This document shows positions 54,997 to 59,890 of a stretch of DNA of 64,000 bases, in pieces (positions within the stretch are counted from its first letter, which is position 1; every line of letters begins with the position of its first letter). The notes beneath the pieces were generated by a model. It did not search any database. It saw nothing but the letters and a program-made list of their open reading frames with translations, and was not told where the DNA came from. The DNA lies in assembly GCF_001040705.1 (NCBI RefSeq), contig NZ_CVQP01000006.1:53760-117759 (forward strand). The letters are read 5' to 3'. A program made the position numbers and the translations under genes. This DNA is from Rhodococcus sp. RD6.2. GTDB lineage: Bacteria; Actinomycetota; Actinomycetes; Mycobacteriales; Mycobacteriaceae.

Positions 54997-55020
54997 GTGC
55001 TGTGATTCGAATCACAGCAC
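54997..55020 (+). promoter_or_regulatory. 24-nt perfect palindrome containing a CRP/GlxR-type site
   Basis: GTGCTGTGATTC is followed directly by its reverse complement, with no loop. The centre, TGTGA-TTCGAA-TCACA (55001-55016), is an exact match to the TGTGA-N6-TCACA consensus of cAMP-binding CRP/GlxR regulators of actinomycetes. It starts eight nucleotides after the first desaturase stop and lies about 80 nt upstream of the second desaturase. It could also act as a terminator, but a loopless stem favours an operator. Confidence 0.6.
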
Positions 55021-55025
55021 AATCT

Positions 55026-55053
55026 CCGTAACCTACGGGGCCGTAACTTACGG
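55026..55053 (+). promoter_or_regulatory. Tandem 13-nt palindromes before the second desaturase
   Basis: CCGTAACCTACGG (55026-55038) and CCGTAACTTACGG (55041-55053) are separated by GG, giving a direct repeat of 15-nt period. The second is a perfect 13-nt palindrome. A TAGGGT box follows at 55054-55059, so the repeats cover the region just upstream of a -10 element, where a repressor would block the polymerase. The pattern matches the site at 52471-52498. Confidence 0.6.
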
Positions 55054-55094
55054 TAGGGTAGCCCGGTCAATGGAAGTTCTGCACCGGGAGAACG

Positions 55095-56336
55095 ATGGCT
55101 ATTTCGGACGTCAAGGAGTACGCGCACCTCACCGAGGCCGATGTCGAGGCCCTCGGTCGAGAGTTGGATGCGATTCGCCGGGACATCGAAGCGTCTCGGG
55201 GCGAACGCGACGCCAAGTACCTACGCAACACGATCCGGCTGCAGCGGTCCCTCGAGGTCGGCGGCCGCGCGGTCCTCTTCGGTAGCCGCAAGCGCCCGCT
55301 CTGGCTGCTCGGTGCGGGCATGCTCGGGGTCGCGAAGATCATCGAGAACATGGAGCTCGGGCACAACGTGATGCACGGGCAGTGGGACTGGATGAACGAT
55401 CCCGAAGTGCACTCCGCGAGCTGGGAGTGGGACGTGGTCGGGCCTTCCGCGCACTGGAAGCAGACCCACAACTATCTGCACCACAAGTACACCAACATCC
55501 TCGGCATGGACGACGACGTGGGATACGGCCTGCTGCGCGTCACCCGCGACCAGCGGTGGAAGCCGTTCAACGCGGGCAATCTCGTCTACAACACCCTGCT
55601 CGCACTGTTCTTCGAGTTCGGCATCGCCGCGCAGCACGTCGAGCTCGGCAAGGTGGCGAAGGGTCGCGACGACCGTGAGGACACCAAGCGCAAGCTGCGT
55701 GAGGTCGGCGACAAGGTGGGCAAGCAGCTCCTCAAGGACTACGTCGTGTTCCCGGCGCTCACCGGTAAGGCGTGGAAGTCCACGATGTCGGCGAACTTCA
55801 CCGCCAACGTCATCCGGAACGTGTGGACCAATGCGGTCATCTTCTGCGGACACTTCCCGGACGGTGCCGAGAAGTTCACGAAGGCCGACGTCGACACCGA
55901 GACGCAAGCCCAGTGGTACCTGCGGCAGATGCTCGGCAGCGCGAACATCTCCGGCGGCAAGGTCATGGACTTCATGACCGGCAACCTCAGCTACCAGATC
56001 GAGCACCACATCTTCCCGGACCTGCCGTCGAACCGGTACGCCGAGATCGCGGTGCGGGTGCGGGAGCTGTGCGACAAGTACGACCTGCCGTACACCACCG
56101 GTCCGTTCCTCGTGCAGTACGGAAAGTCGTGGCGCACCATCGCCAAGCTGTCGTTGCCGAACAAGTACCTGCGCGACACGGTCGACGATGCACCGGAGAC
56201 GGCGTCCGAGCACAAGTGGGCCGGCCAGGAGGCAGTCCTCAGCATCGATCCGGCGACCGGTCGGGCTCGCGGCTTACAGACCGCGATCCGGGAGTCGAAG
56301 AAGCGCAAGGGTCTGCGCAAGCTGCTCGCCCGCTAG
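55095..56336 (+). CDS. Membrane fatty-acid (acyl-CoA) desaturase, second of a tandem pair
   Basis: The 413-residue protein is a close paralogue of the preceding desaturase, with the same histidine boxes (GHNVMH at 89-94, HNYLHH at 125-130, QIEHH near 306) and nearly the same N-terminal half. It differs mostly around residues 180-215 and in the basic C-terminus (KKRKGLRKLLAR). It has its own promoter region with a CRP-type site and tandem palindromes, so the two enzymes are probably regulated differently. It would introduce double bonds into fatty acyl-CoA, using the upstream reductase. ATG at 55095 has a GGGAGAACG site. Confidence 0.92.
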   Translation: MAISDVKEYAHLTEADVEALGRELDAIRRDIEASRGERDAKYLRNTIRLQRSLEVGGRAVLFGSRKRPLWLLGAGMLGVAKIIENMELGHNVMHGQWDWMNDPEVHSASWEWDVVGPSAHWKQTHNYLHHKYTNILGMDDDVGYGLLRVTRDQRWKPFNAGNLVYNTLLALFFEFGIAAQHVELGKVAKGRDDREDTKRKLREVGDKVGKQLLKDYVVFPALTGKAWKSTMSANFTANVIRNVWTNAVIFCGHFPDGAEKFTKADVDTETQAQWYLRQMLGSANISGGKVMDFMTGNLSYQIEHHIFPDLPSNRYAEIAVRVRELCDKYDLPYTTGPFLVQYGKSWRTIAKLSLPNKYLRDTVDDAPETASEHKWAGQEAVLSIDPATGRARGLQTAIRESKKRKGLRKLLAR

Positions 56337-56380
56337 GTACCGGGACGCTGGTAGCAGGCATGTCGGCTTGAACTGAAGAC

Positions 56381-56432
56381 AACCTCGGGTTGGGATGTGA
56401 TTTGTCGAAGGTTCACATCCCAACCCGAGGTT
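56381..56432 (+). terminator. Terminator of the second desaturase
   Basis: A perfect 20-bp stem, AACCTCGGGTTGGGATGTGA (56381-56400) with its reverse complement (56413-56432), has a 12-nt loop. It starts 45 nt after the stop codon. The stretch 56433-56565 after it holds no gene that I can support. Confidence 0.85.
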
Positions 56433-56565
56433 CTCGTGTCCCATCGAAATGCCCGCACCATTCCCAGGGGAATGCTCGTCGTCGAGCGCTACCGAGTCGG
56501 CTGGCCCAAGGCTCATATGGCATCCGACAGAAGCTCATCCGCCCGCACGGCGCGTGGTAGATCGG

Positions 56566-56609
56566 CAAGCGGCGGCTCCCCGTCCGGTCAGGGTGGGGGC
56601 CGCCGCTTG
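56566..56609 (-). terminator. Terminator downstream of the 48-residue small gene
   Basis: CAAGCGGCGGC (56566-56576) pairs with 56599-56609, and the inner TCCCC/GGGGG pairs add about five more. It lies about 60 nt beyond the stop of the small minus-strand gene. Its GGCGGCTCCCC core is shared with the hairpin at 57018-57056. Confidence 0.65.
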
Positions 56610-56671
56610 TCGTCGGTCGATCAGCAGCCGTTCGGCCCCGCGGAGCGGGTTCTGGTGCCGGTGCTGCGGAC

Positions 56672-56818
56672 CTATGAGCCGTTCAGGGCTCCGAGCCCCA
56701 TCCGGGCCGTGTCCAAGCCGAGCTCCACAACCTCGCCGGCCAGGTCGAAGGCGCCGTAGATCACGCCTCCGATCTGGTTCACCAGTCCGAATGCTCCCGA
56801 TCCCAAACCATGGTTCAT
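56672..56818 (-). CDS. Small 48-residue hydrophobic peptide, possible channel-forming or mycoloylated cell-envelope protein
   Basis: The frame encodes 48 residues beginning MNHGLGSGAFGLVNQIGG and continuing VIYGAFDLAGEVVELGLDTA and RMGLGALNGS. It has no signal peptide or cysteine and is rich in Gly, Ala and Leu. Four acidic residues (Asp25, Glu29, Glu32, Asp36) spaced three or four apart would form one face of an amphipathic helix. A GAAGGG ribosome-binding site lies in front of the ATG, and a strong hairpin follows. Size and composition resemble the PorA/PorH peptides of Corynebacterium, which are secreted without signal peptides and form mycomembrane channels. I recognise no specific family. 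Confidence 0.6.
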   Translation of the reverse strand: MNHGLGSGAFGLVNQIGGVIYGAFDLAGEVVELGLDTARMGLGALNGS

Positions 56819-57017
56819 CTGTGAATCCCTTCAATTGTGGACGCTGCGGTCTCCCGAGCGCGCTCGATCATATGCACAGATTTCGCGATTCACAGGCGAT
56901 TCGGTCTCGTTCACGCCGTCGCTGATTCGGGTACCTGCCAATGTGATTGAGTCCGGTTGTTGTCGTCGGCGGCAGCCTCAAGGCCGTCGCAGGAATGTTG
57001 ACCGGCTCCCCATGCGA

Positions 57018-57056
57018 GCGGCGGCTCCCCGCCCGGGCAGGGTGGGGAGCCGCCGC
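57018..57056 (-). terminator. Hairpin downstream of the possible third small gene
   Basis: GCGGCGGCTCCCC (57018-57030) pairs perfectly with GGGGAGCCGCCGC (57044-57056) around a 13-nt loop. It starts 14 nt after the stop of the short frame at 57070 when read on the minus strand. Confidence 0.7.
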
Positions 57057-57069
57057 ACGCATGAGTTGA

Positions 57070-57147
57070 TCAGTAATCGTCCTCGGAGCCGACGGCGTTC
57101 GATGCCAGGTCGACGCTCGAGCTGAACCCGTAGACGAAGAGATACAA
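57070..57147 (-). pseudogene. Possible remnant or very short gene of the small-peptide cluster
   Basis: The frame ends ...LYLFVYGFSSSVDLASNAVGSEDDY and is followed at once by a terminator-like hairpin, as its neighbours are. Only a TTG at 57147 (25 residues) is available as a start, with no ribosome-binding site; in-frame codons further upstream have no ATG or GTG until inside the neighbouring hairpin. The patterned end (VYGF, SSSVDLAS) recalls the other two peptides. It may be a decayed copy, or a gene with an unusual start. Low confidence. Confidence 0.3.
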
Positions 57148-57248
57148 AAGTGTCGATCTTGTTACTCGCTGCCGGGATCCGCGCGACGAGGACGCGTCGC
57201 GGCTGGCGCACACTGTTGTTCCGCACGTCCTGAGTGCCGCAGGGCGTG

Positions 57249-57283
57249 GACGTTGGGCCCCGCCGACGGCAGGGCCCAACGTC
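57249..57283 (-). terminator. Terminator downstream of the 34-residue small gene
   Basis: GACGTTGGGCCC (57249-57260) pairs perfectly with GGGCCCAACGTC (57272-57283) around an 11-nt loop. It begins nine nucleotides after the stop of the small gene at 57292. Confidence 0.8.
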
Positions 57284-57291
57284 AACCCAGG

Positions 57292-57396
57292 TCAGGAACC
57301 GGCGATGGACGAACCGAGGTCCATCAGGGTTGCCAGGATGGACTTGACATCACCGAAGATGGACGAGCCCGCACCGAGGATCTGCTCCACACTCAT
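57292..57396 (-). CDS. Small 34-residue amphipathic peptide, possible cell-envelope peptide
   Basis: The frame encodes 34 residues: MSVEQILGAGSSIFGDVKSI followed by LATLMDLGSSIAGS. It has an excellent AAGGAG ribosome-binding site six nucleotides before the ATG and a strong terminator nine nucleotides after the stop, so it is very probably a real gene although far below normal cut-offs. The sequence is amphipathic with a GSSI motif repeated at residues 10-13 and 28-31. There is no signal peptide, cysteine or positive tail. It could be a porin-like, mycoloylated or toxin-like peptide. Its upstream region contains a palindrome at 57460-57473. Confidence 0.65.
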   Translation of the reverse strand: MSVEQILGAGSSIFGDVKSILATLMDLGSSIAGS

Positions 57397-57459
57397 CTGA
57401 ACTCCTTGCGTCGTGACCGGGCGACCGAGGGGCCGCTTTTCTGTCGTGACTTTCGTGAG

Positions 57460-57473
57460 CTGATTCGAATCAG
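57460..57473 (-). promoter_or_regulatory. 14-nt palindrome upstream of the 34-residue gene
   Basis: CTGATTCGAATCAG lies 63 nt upstream of the small gene start. Its central 12 nt, TGATTCGAATCA, are identical to the centre of the CRP-type palindrome in front of the second desaturase at 54997-55020. The outer bases deviate from TGTGA-N6-TCACA (CTGA and TCAG), so any CRP binding would be weak; another regulator may read the shared core. Confidence 0.45.
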
Positions 57474-57557
57474 ATTGAGCTCGTACAGCGTAAACGATGC
57501 GATCGCGAAAACGTGTCGACGGTCACAGTATCGAGTCTCAACCGTGACGCGGGCGTG

Positions 57558-58574
57558 TCACCACGCTTCGTTCGACGACAACGCGACCAGGAGTTGTCGA
57601 ACCGCGCCCGCCCGGCGCGCGGCCTGCCCCTCGAGCTGGTCGAGTGCGCACTCCGGATCGGCCGGGGGACCGAGGTGGGTGCATCCGCGCGGACAGTCCT
57701 CGATGGCTGCCGCAAGATCGGTGAAGGCGCCCATCACGTCGTCGGGGGAGATGTGCGCGAGCCCGAACGACCGGATGCCCGGGGTGTCGACGACCCAGCC
57801 ACGCGGGTCGTCCGGCGATGCGTCGTCGGGTGCGGGCAGCGGAAGCGCCACGGACTGGGTCGAGGTGTGCCTGCCCTTTCCGACTCCGGACACCACGCCG
57901 GTTGCTCGATCTGCTTCGGGGACAAGGCGATTGACGAGAGTCGACTTGCCTACGCCGGAGTGGCCGATGAGTGCCGTCACCTTTCCGGCCAGGATGCGGC
58001 GCAGAGCGTCGATCGGCTCGGACGTGCCCGCCAGGACGACCGGGACATCGAGGTCGGCGAAGGCGGCGGCGAACTCCTGATGGTCCGCGAGATCGCCCTT
58101 CGTCAGGCACAGGATCGGCTCGAGACCGCCGACGTACGCGGCGACCAGCGCCCGCTCGACGAACCCGGTCCGCGGCGGTGGATCTGCGAGCGCGACCACG
58201 ATCAGCAGCTGTGACGCGTTCGCGACAACGATCCGTTCGAAAGGGTCGGTGTCGTCCGCGGTGCGCCGCAGGACTGTCGTCCGGTCCTCCACGCGCACGA
58301 TGCGGGCGAGCGTGTCGACCCGTCCCGACACGTCCCCCACGACGCCGACGCGGTCGCCGACCACGATGGGCGTGCGACCGAGCTCGCGGGCCCGCATGGT
58401 GACGACCGGCCGGTCGGGGTCGCCGCCGAGTACGCAGCCCCAGCGCCCCCGGTCGACCGACACCACCATCGCCTCCTCGGCGTGGGCGTGGTCCGGCCGG
58501 TTCTTCGTCCGCGGGCGCGACCCTTTGCCCGGACGGATCCTTACGTCCGACTCGTCGTACTGCCGCGGGCTCAG
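57558..58574 (-). CDS. rsgA: Ribosome small-subunit-dependent GTPase A
   Basis: The 338-residue circularly permuted GTPase matures the 30S subunit. Motifs occur in the order G4 LTKGDLAD, G1 [15 protein letters not shown]2-like [16 protein letters not shown]3 [10 protein letters not shown], followed by a zinc site ([18 protein letters not shown]). The N-terminal segment [42 protein letters not shown] matches mycobacterial RsgA. No ATG, GTG or TTG lies between the aroA stop and that segment. The best start is CTG at 58574, which overlaps the aroA stop as CTGA; a GTG at 58634 inside aroA is the alternative. Confidence 0.9.
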
Positions 58575-59890
58575 GGCCGCGCCCCCGGCTCGGCGGGCTG
58601 GGACGTCACCGTCGACGCCAGCATCGTGGTCCACATGTTCTCGAAGCCCGGCAACGTCTTCGCGGTCGTGCCGACGTCGTCCACGTCGACGTCGTCGACG
58701 ACGAGCCCGACGATCGCGCCCGCTGTTGCCATGCGGTGGTCCGCGTACGAGAGCCATCGGCCACCGTGCAGCGGACGGGGCTCGATCCGCAGCCCGTCCA
58801 CCGTTTCCGTCACCGATCCGCCGAGGCCGTTGATCTCGGTGGCAAGCGCCGCGAGACGGTCGGTCTCGTGGCCCCGTAGATGGGCGATGCCGCGGAGAAC
58901 CGACGGCCCGTCCGCGAGCGCCGCCAACGCCGCGACCGTCGGGGTGAGTTCACCGATGTCGTGGAGGTCGACGTCGATTCCGCGCAGGCGGTCGGGGCCG
59001 GTCACCGTGAGCAGTGAATCCTCCAGGGAGACAGTTGCTCCCATGTCCGTGAGGATGCCGCGGAATGCGTCGCCCGGCTGCGTCGTCGACGCGGGCCACA
59101 GCGGCACGGAAACGGTGCCGCCGGTGACCGCGGCCGCCGCCAGGAACGGCGTCGCGTTCGACAGGTCCGGCTCGATCACCCAGTCGACCGGAGTGACGTT
59201 CCCCGGCAACACCTTCCACGTGTCGGCATCGCCGCTGTCGCCGGGCGTCAGGACCGTGACACCCGCGTCGCGCAACATTGCGACCGTCATGTCGATGTGG
59301 GGCATGGACGGCAGCGAACCGCCGGCGTGACGGACCGTGACGCCGTCGTCGAAGCGGGCGGCCGAGAGCAGCAGGCCGGAGACGAACTGGGACGACCCGG
59401 ACGCGTCGATCGTGACGGTCCCGCCGCGCATTCCGCTGCGGCCGGCCACGGTGAACGGAAGCCCCGTGCCGTCGATGTCCGCGCCGAGGCCCCGAAGTGC
59501 GTCGAGGATCGTCGCGAGCGGCCTGGTGCGTGCCTGCTCGTCACCGTCGAACGCGACCGGACCGTCCGCCAGGGCCGCGACGGACGGCAGGAACCGCATG
59601 ACGGTGCCCGCGAGTCCGCAGTCGACGGTCGCCGAGTGCAGCGACCCGGGGGTGACGCGCAGCGTGGTGGGGGACTCGGCCTCACTGATCGTCACACCGA
59701 GGGCCCGCAATCCGTCGATCATCAGGTCGGTGTCGCGGCTGCGCAGCGCCCCCGTGATCGTCGAGGGACCCGACGCGAGCGCGGCAAGGATCAGGGCCCG
59801 GTTGGTGATCGACTTCGACCCGGGCAGGGTCACCGTCGCATGTACGGGCGATTCGGCCAGAGGCGCTCTCCACAGACTCACGACCACCAT
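58571..59890 (-). CDS. aroA: 3-phosphoshikimate 1-carboxyvinyltransferase (EPSP synthase)
   Basis: The 439-residue enzyme joins shikimate-3-phosphate and phosphoenolpyruvate in the aromatic pathway. It has [21 protein letters not shown] at the start, [18 protein letters not shown], the substrate site [14 protein letters not shown], and [25 protein letters not shown], with [15 protein letters not shown] near the end. ATG at 59890 is used; a TACGGG box lies just upstream on the minus strand. It is divergent from the SRAP gene, and its stop overlaps the rsgA start. Confidence 0.95.

Follow-up and report, generated by a model that had tools for sequence, protein, structure and literature searches.

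In Corynebacterium glutamicum, PorA and PorH are described as proteins of 45 and 57 residues, respectively (accessible part of PMC5310785), and the PorA/PorH arrangement is that of a groEL2-ppk2 locus (accessible part of PMC5944148). PorA, PorH and ProtX are reported to have no signal sequences and to carry mycolate on Ser (available portions of PMC5310785, PMC11066868 and the preprint PMC12632848), the mycolated Ser lying among Ser, Gly and Ala (PMC11066868, same portion). ProtX, a small mycolated protein predicted to be alpha-helical (PMC5310785, PMC9671496 and PMC12632848, in the sections available), is modified on its penultimate Ser37 (PMC5310785, likewise in part). PorH and ProtX are cell-wall-bound, and adsorption of phage Cog requires ProtX, as stated by the available parts of six papers cited as a set (PMC5310785, PMC11066868, PMC5944148, PMC9233653, PMC12632848 and PMC9671496). 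The mycolate ester on Ser depends on the transferase Cmt1/MytC. Orthologues of Cmt1 are reported to be present in Rhodococcus (PMC11066868, in part); the Rhodococcus channels identified by gene are, in the accessible portion of PMC9233653, MspA-type proteins with signal peptides, and the same portion gives MspA-family porins as octamers of ~20 kDa. In the literature covered, as far as its available portions go, such tiny mycomembrane proteins are described from Corynebacterium; mycomembrane proteins of this size escape both gene finders and sequence searches. A literature search confined mostly to papers outside subscription returned no title on PorA/PorH-like peptides in Rhodococcus. An earlier remark on small-subunit channels in Rhodococcus reportedly may refer to work of 2000 on R. 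erythropolis.

We compared with these systems a region flanked by the convergent rsgA and desaturase genes in a window of 64 kb (the whole stretch of DNA that was analysed), which lies on contig C6 of a genome of 5.57 Mb that is 99.99% complete. Comparison of RsgA places this genome within Rhodococcus and close to R. triatomae (94% identity), followed by R. spelaei (89%), R. maanshanensis and R. oryzae (86% each) and R. tukisamuensis (85%). The locus contains a genuine, conserved micro-gene that has its own control element; beside it lie a decayed gene and, probably, a third gene. Its features are as follows, with the basis of assignment or folding energy in brackets:

57485..57494, minus strand: promoter-like box TTTACGCTGT, with a possible -10 element TACGCT (conservation)
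57460..57473, no strand assigned: palindrome CTGATTCGAATCAG upstream of gene 1 (conservation)
57402..57407, minus strand: ribosome site AAGGAG of gene 1 (sequence)
57292..57396, minus strand: gene 1, a conserved gene with the 34-residue product MSVEQILGAGSSIFGDVKSILATLMDLGSSIAGS (homologues, conservative change, predicted helix)
57249..57283, minus strand: hairpin after gene 1 (-40.9 kcal/mol)
57070..57153, minus strand: gene 2 remnant, the C-terminal part of a gene for a 43-residue peptide (start and 5' half missing)
57018..57056, minus strand: hairpin of the gene 2 remnant (-51.4 kcal/mol; aligns to the hairpin of R. triatomae gene 2)
56922..56929, no strand assigned: half-site CTGATTCG of the gene 1 palindrome, lying 103 nt ahead of gene 3
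56827..56832, minus strand: ribosome site GAAGGG of gene 3 (sequence)
56672..56818, minus strand: gene 3, a probable gene of 48 residues (composition filter, predicted helix)
56566..56609, minus strand: hairpin after gene 3 (-37.6 kcal/mol)

The frames and ribosome sites put forward by an earlier sequence-only reading are present at these coordinates, and its three hairpins do fold strongly. That reading had also named a conserved position in related genomes as a check, and a homologue of gene 1 was indeed found between rsgA and the fatty-acid desaturase gene in all six genus genomes searched (the window's own, R. maanshanensis, R. oryzae, R. spelaei, R. triatomae and R. tukisamuensis). The products are 34–37 residues long across the six species and share as invariant elements S2, an AGS, a GS and a further GS located at the C-terminus or at most three residues from it. 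Within a core of 26 residues, 98 of the 157 pairwise amino-acid differences are conservative (0.624), compared with 0.292 (sd 0.056) in a neutral simulation, none of whose 3000 runs reached the observed value, and with 0.10–0.385 in the other five frames of the same DNA; in this test the amino-acid classes and base frequencies were of our own choosing and the species pairs are non-independent. We regard this test as the best evidence for translation of gene 1. Insertions inside the gene preserve the reading frame. Judged from sequence comparison, gene 1 is a real, conserved small-protein gene.

The synonymous-biased change that the sequence-only reading expected is not seen in the closest species pairs. 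Between R. maanshanensis and R. oryzae, gene 1 accumulated 0.5 synonymous and 6.5 nonsynonymous changes, compared with 64 and 12 in rsgA and 52.5 and 17.5 in the desaturase gene; the nonsynonymous share of gene 1 differs from that of the two neighbours with a Fisher p of 0.0006 or 2e-5, depending on rounding. Comparison of R. spelaei with the same two species gave pN/pS values of 1.6–1.7 for gene 1, and comparison of the window with the others gave 0.47–0.68, against 0.07–0.17 for rsgA. These counts indicate a protein that changes fast in its letters while its chemistry is preserved. Positive selection was considered and set aside, as seven changes are too few to distinguish relaxed from diversifying selection. 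Likewise, high expression is not indicated by codon use, the codon index of gene 1 (0.56–0.70) being ordinary.

Structure prediction gives gene 1 a single helix spanning residues 3–33 (mean pLDDT 85.5). The hydrophobicity moment of the family peaks at 100 degrees (p = 0.0048), while that of the R. triatomae gene 1 peptide taken alone is unexceptional (p = 0.134). The window peptide is acidic, contains one Lys and has no strongly hydrophobic membrane span; judged by sequence, the peptides of 34–48 residues (below ~70) lack a basic N-terminal stretch followed by a hydrophobic core, i.e. they are signal-less. The earlier description of short, acidic, signal-less, amphipathic peptides with Ser among Gly, Ala and Ser thus holds, and single helices are predicted for them, as in PorA, PorH and ProtX. 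Pfam and NCBIfam searches with E values up to 10 gave no match for any of the three frames. In 401 genomes drawn evenly from the larger family, the gene 1 profile recovered the six genus members and five weak matches (E 0.003–0.042); the latter lie inside frames of 90–278 aa and were treated as chance, leaving no accepted gene 1 outside its own genus in this set. A profile search of the PDB returned one match, to an unrelated enzyme (E = 0.079), which was rejected.

The sequences upstream of gene 1 are conserved as well. At the ribosome site, GGAGT is kept in all six species and AAGGAG in five, R. triatomae having AGGGAG. The 13-mer CTGATTCGAATCA occurs upstream of gene 1 in all six; each genome contains one site, always before gene 1, and the backward control was found at none. 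In four of the six species the full 14-base palindrome is present, and there the site is listed on both strands. The palindrome may represent either a control site or a 5' RNA hairpin; a conserved 5' RNA structure of gene 1 was tried and rejected, as the covariation term was unfavourable in alignment folding. A TTACRCTGT box further upstream is kept in all six species, and the stretch 57485..57494 may act as a promoter, a reading based on this conservation; a scan with the sigma-70 consensus found no promoter. The 8-mer CTGATTCG ahead of gene 3 is the only occurrence in the 64 kb outside the palindrome, counting both strands, and was noticed after the fact. In the 5' untranslated region of gene 1 (57397-57460), two GTCAMGACA-like copies (GTCA, one base, GAC) are seen in all six species.

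The five other species likewise have a strong hairpin 3' of gene 1 (-44.0 to -49.9 kcal/mol in 75-base folds), and taken together the hairpins 3' of gene 1 in the six species, of R. triatomae gene 2 and of gene 3 range from -37.6 to -58.6 kcal/mol in folds of 52–75 bases. The interval 56340-57560, amounting to 1.9% of the window, holds four of its 48 strong-hairpin islands, one of which is part of an insertion-sequence-like remnant. The sequence-only reading had called the hairpins terminators; they are strong folds, but a consensus terminator scan of 55000-59000 found none and they lack a T-run, so that a terminator function can be suggested at most. It had also noted a core common to two hairpins, and those at 57018 and 56566 are in fact identical at 39 of 43 aligned positions, a similarity that we ascribe to duplication and not to three independent units. 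Its threefold unit of short frame plus terminator accordingly reduces to a single conserved gene, a remnant and an orphan.

The remnant can be recognized by comparison with R. triatomae, which carries an intact second peptide gene of 43 residues downstream of gene 1. Residues 17–43 of this peptide match 27 residues encoded in the window with 74% identity (E = 2.3e-6). At the DNA level, the window aligns as far as ~57141 with the sequence 5' of R. triatomae gene 2 and, from ~57139 on, with the C-terminal coding part of that gene, and ~190 intervening R. triatomae bases, including the start codon and ribosome site of gene 2, have no counterpart in the window. The third frame (57070-57147), which had been read as a gene with a weak start, is by this alignment the 3' remnant of a second peptide gene, and its start appeared weak because the start codon and ribosome site are missing. 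Among the 401 family genomes, gene 2 is found in two, the window genome and R. triatomae.

Gene 3 is the orphan. The window contains 131 ribosome-site-led frames of 28–80 aa, 42 of which were left out because they share their stop with a frame of >150 aa. Among the remaining 89, the composition filter was passed by exactly two, the 34- and 48-residue frames, in line with the earlier claim that they are more than chance; the filter was first run on Corynebacterium-type loci, and both window peptides were known to us when it was set. We consider it likely that the 48-residue frame is a gene, and probably one for a lineage-specific peptide of gene 1's kind. That it is instead a chance frame beside a duplicated hairpin appears rather unlikely, even though its matches look accidental: a search of the 401 genomes at E values up to 0.5 gave matches in 126 (its own included), the best of the others at 0.012, which were treated as chance, leaving no relative of the 48-mer in this set beyond what looks like chance. 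The peptide moreover contains just 2 Ser, adjoins the insertion-sequence-like remnant and is weakly similar to gene 1 sequences in five comparisons out of six (0.048–0.522 of shuffles). Against a chance origin stand, besides the filter result and the half-palindrome upstream, a predicted helix of 42 residues (5–46; mean pLDDT 88.4, from the single sequence), a codon index of 0.616, which exceeds that of short frames (0.495, sd 0.121) and falls short of that of the window's genes (0.697, sd 0.066), and similarity to R. triatomae gene 1, reached by 0.0025 and 0.003 of pattern-keeping shuffles, the best of the six comparisons.

For comparison with PorA and PorH, PPK2 was searched in ten Corynebacterium-type genomes, giving 26 matches, beside which 14 small frames in 10 loci passed the composition filter. 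Ten frames in seven loci were kept, and four in three loci (L115, L122 and L137) were dropped because they looked unlike; a GroEL-like gene lies on the other side in all six of the seven kept loci that were checked. Length, charge and helical moment of the Rhodococcus peptides are like those of these ten frames. Divergence is seen among the Corynebacterium-type peptides too (18–24% identity to the first of five), and profile comparison of the two groups by hhalign gave a probability of 5.9%. In the shuffle test, a few of 48 comparisons beat the pattern-keeping shuffles and most did not: the scores of the R. triatomae 43-mer against a 34-mer from locus L132 were reached by none of 1000 shuffles in either direction, and those of gene 1 of R. 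maanshanensis and R. oryzae by 0–4 of 1000, whereas window gene 1 is not similar to the same 34-mer (527 and 652 of 1000). Owing to these weak sequence links we say that the peptides may work like PorA/PorH, not that they are members of the family. The features in common are tiny size (34–69 aa for the frames found here), absence of a signal, an amphipathic helix, a mostly acidic character, genes that are often paired and fast-changing sequence. Unlike PorA/PorH, the Rhodococcus peptides sit between rsgA and the desaturase gene instead of at groEL2-ppk2, have no family or profile match and, in gene 1, possess their own promoter-like box and palindrome. The PorA/PorH profile proposed by the sequence-only reading therefore stands for size, predicted helix, charge and absence of a signal; the locus differs, and Pfam and NCBIfam give no match. 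No porin-like small frame was seen in the three 16-kb stretches that surround PPK2 matches in the window genome; the single frame there that passed the filter lies beside a Kdp-type gene and is presumably KdpF-like. The likeness to ProtX, by description alone and within the available parts of the sources, concerns about equal length, absence of a signal sequence and a single small helical protein; ProtX has its modified Ser near the C-terminus, and gene 1 an invariant Ser at most three residues from the end.

The best single explanation, to which we assign a probability of about one half, is that gene 1 encodes a mycomembrane protein working like Corynebacterium PorA or ProtX. Gene 1 would make an acidic amphipathic alpha-helix of 34–37 residues without a signal peptide, which would be exported by the same route as PorA and ProtX, would carry mycolate on at least one Ser of the invariant AGS, GS and near-terminal GS, and would form an oligomeric channel of the mycolate outer layer or serve there as a surface or anchor protein; 57070-57153 would then be the remnant of another peptide of this kind. 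A mycolated Ser is proposed because these invariant motifs fit the Ser among Ser, Gly and Ala described in the available part of PMC11066868. Further points in favour of this role are the conserved position in six of six genomes, the signs of selection on the protein, the amphipathic single helix, the likeness in size, charge and moment to the ten Corynebacterium-type frames, the MspA counts given below and the shuffle result of the R. triatomae 43-mer. Counted against a PorA-like role are the lack of a family match, the low hhalign probability, the dissimilarity of window gene 1 to the L132 34-mer, the unexceptional moment of R. triatomae gene 1 on its own, the lack of gene 1 outside its genus in the 401 genomes, the co-occurrence of gene 1 with many MspA stretches in four species and its ordinary codon use. 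An amphipathic helix alone does not specify a membrane, and the dedicated palindrome and conserved 5' untranslated region suggest regulated expression, both of which would suit a real small protein acting elsewhere, such as a regulator or helper of the inner membrane or of a partner protein, or an RNA-controlled toxin-like hydrophobic peptide. We regard this as possible but doubtful, considering the acidic window peptide with its one Lys and no strongly hydrophobic span, the lack of any Rfam family at gathering score in the window, which implies no known antisense RNA, and the desaturase gene, to which no tie was seen: an RsgA search of named genomes returned 60 loci, and in 27 of the 52 named loci examined rsgA and the desaturase gene are only 18–103 bp apart, leaving no room for gene 1.

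Small amphipathic helices with fast sequence change would also be expected of secreted membrane-active or surfactant-like products of the bacteriocin or modulin type. That the peptides are such products is improbable, given their net negative charge, the lack of an immunity or export gene between rsgA and the desaturase gene in the six species and the maintenance of gene 1 as a single conserved copy in place throughout the genus. It would be more surprising still if the conserved elements were RNA or DNA devices, such as barriers between the convergent rsgA and desaturase genes or a 5' RNA structure, with the peptides incidental. The strong hairpins, the highly conserved untranslated region and the low number of synonymous differences that some pairs show in gene 1 would agree with this, but protein-level conservatism far above that of other frames (0 of 3000 runs), the frame-preserving insertions and the lack of covariation support for a 5' structure argue against it.

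A mycomembrane role for gene 1 would place it at the site of action of the MspA porins of Rhodococcus, Nocardia and Mycobacterium, the mycolate outer layer, although the MspA proteins are ~20-kDa octamers with signal peptides, as described in the available part of the source, and the peptides are tiny and signal-less; Pfam detected no MspA domain in them. MspA-family matches number one each in the window genome and R. triatomae, and the stretches number 19 in R. maanshanensis, 19 in R. oryzae, 11 in R. spelaei and 10 in R. tukisamuensis, with some genes counting as two pieces. The only match in the window genome is on another contig than the peptides; it shares 88% identity with the R. triatomae match and 59–69% with one counterpart apiece in the remaining four species, with no match at E 0.001 to ten other MspA loci. 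As this single MspA has a counterpart in all species, it is the multi-copy type that is missing, and it is missing from just the two genomes that carry additional peptide genes or remnants of them. Because these two are closest relatives, they count as one event, which makes the coincidence a lead, not a proof. Gene 1 itself is no substitute for MspA, since the four other species carry many MspA stretches alongside gene 1. A speculative and fairly improbable extension is that the R. triatomae branch lost its multi-copy MspA and that tiny helical peptides of the rsgA locus took over as mycomembrane pores, which would amount to an outer-membrane channel of the PorA/PorH design outside Corynebacterium, arisen a second time or distantly related. 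A conserved, selected Rhodococcus peptide of this type, with exact coordinates in named species, allows tests of how far small helical, perhaps mycolated, proteins extend among bacteria with mycolates and of whether they can replace channels of the MspA type.

The gap between rsgA and the desaturase gene seems to be a place of repeated gene gain. At four loci from Prescottella and a relative (L028, L029, L071 and L081) it is occupied by other genes; by eye, three of these loci have a flavin-oxidoreductase-like frame there and the fourth a hydrolase-like one. At 56375-56521 the window contains a long inverted repeat with a stem of ~20 bp and a flank resembling an insertion-sequence remnant. No second copy was found in the window's genome, and Pfam gave no match to an insertion-sequence family. 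The element has matches of 73.5–74.3% on three Rhodococcus plasmids, and the one plasmid match inspected is unannotated and lies between transposase genes.
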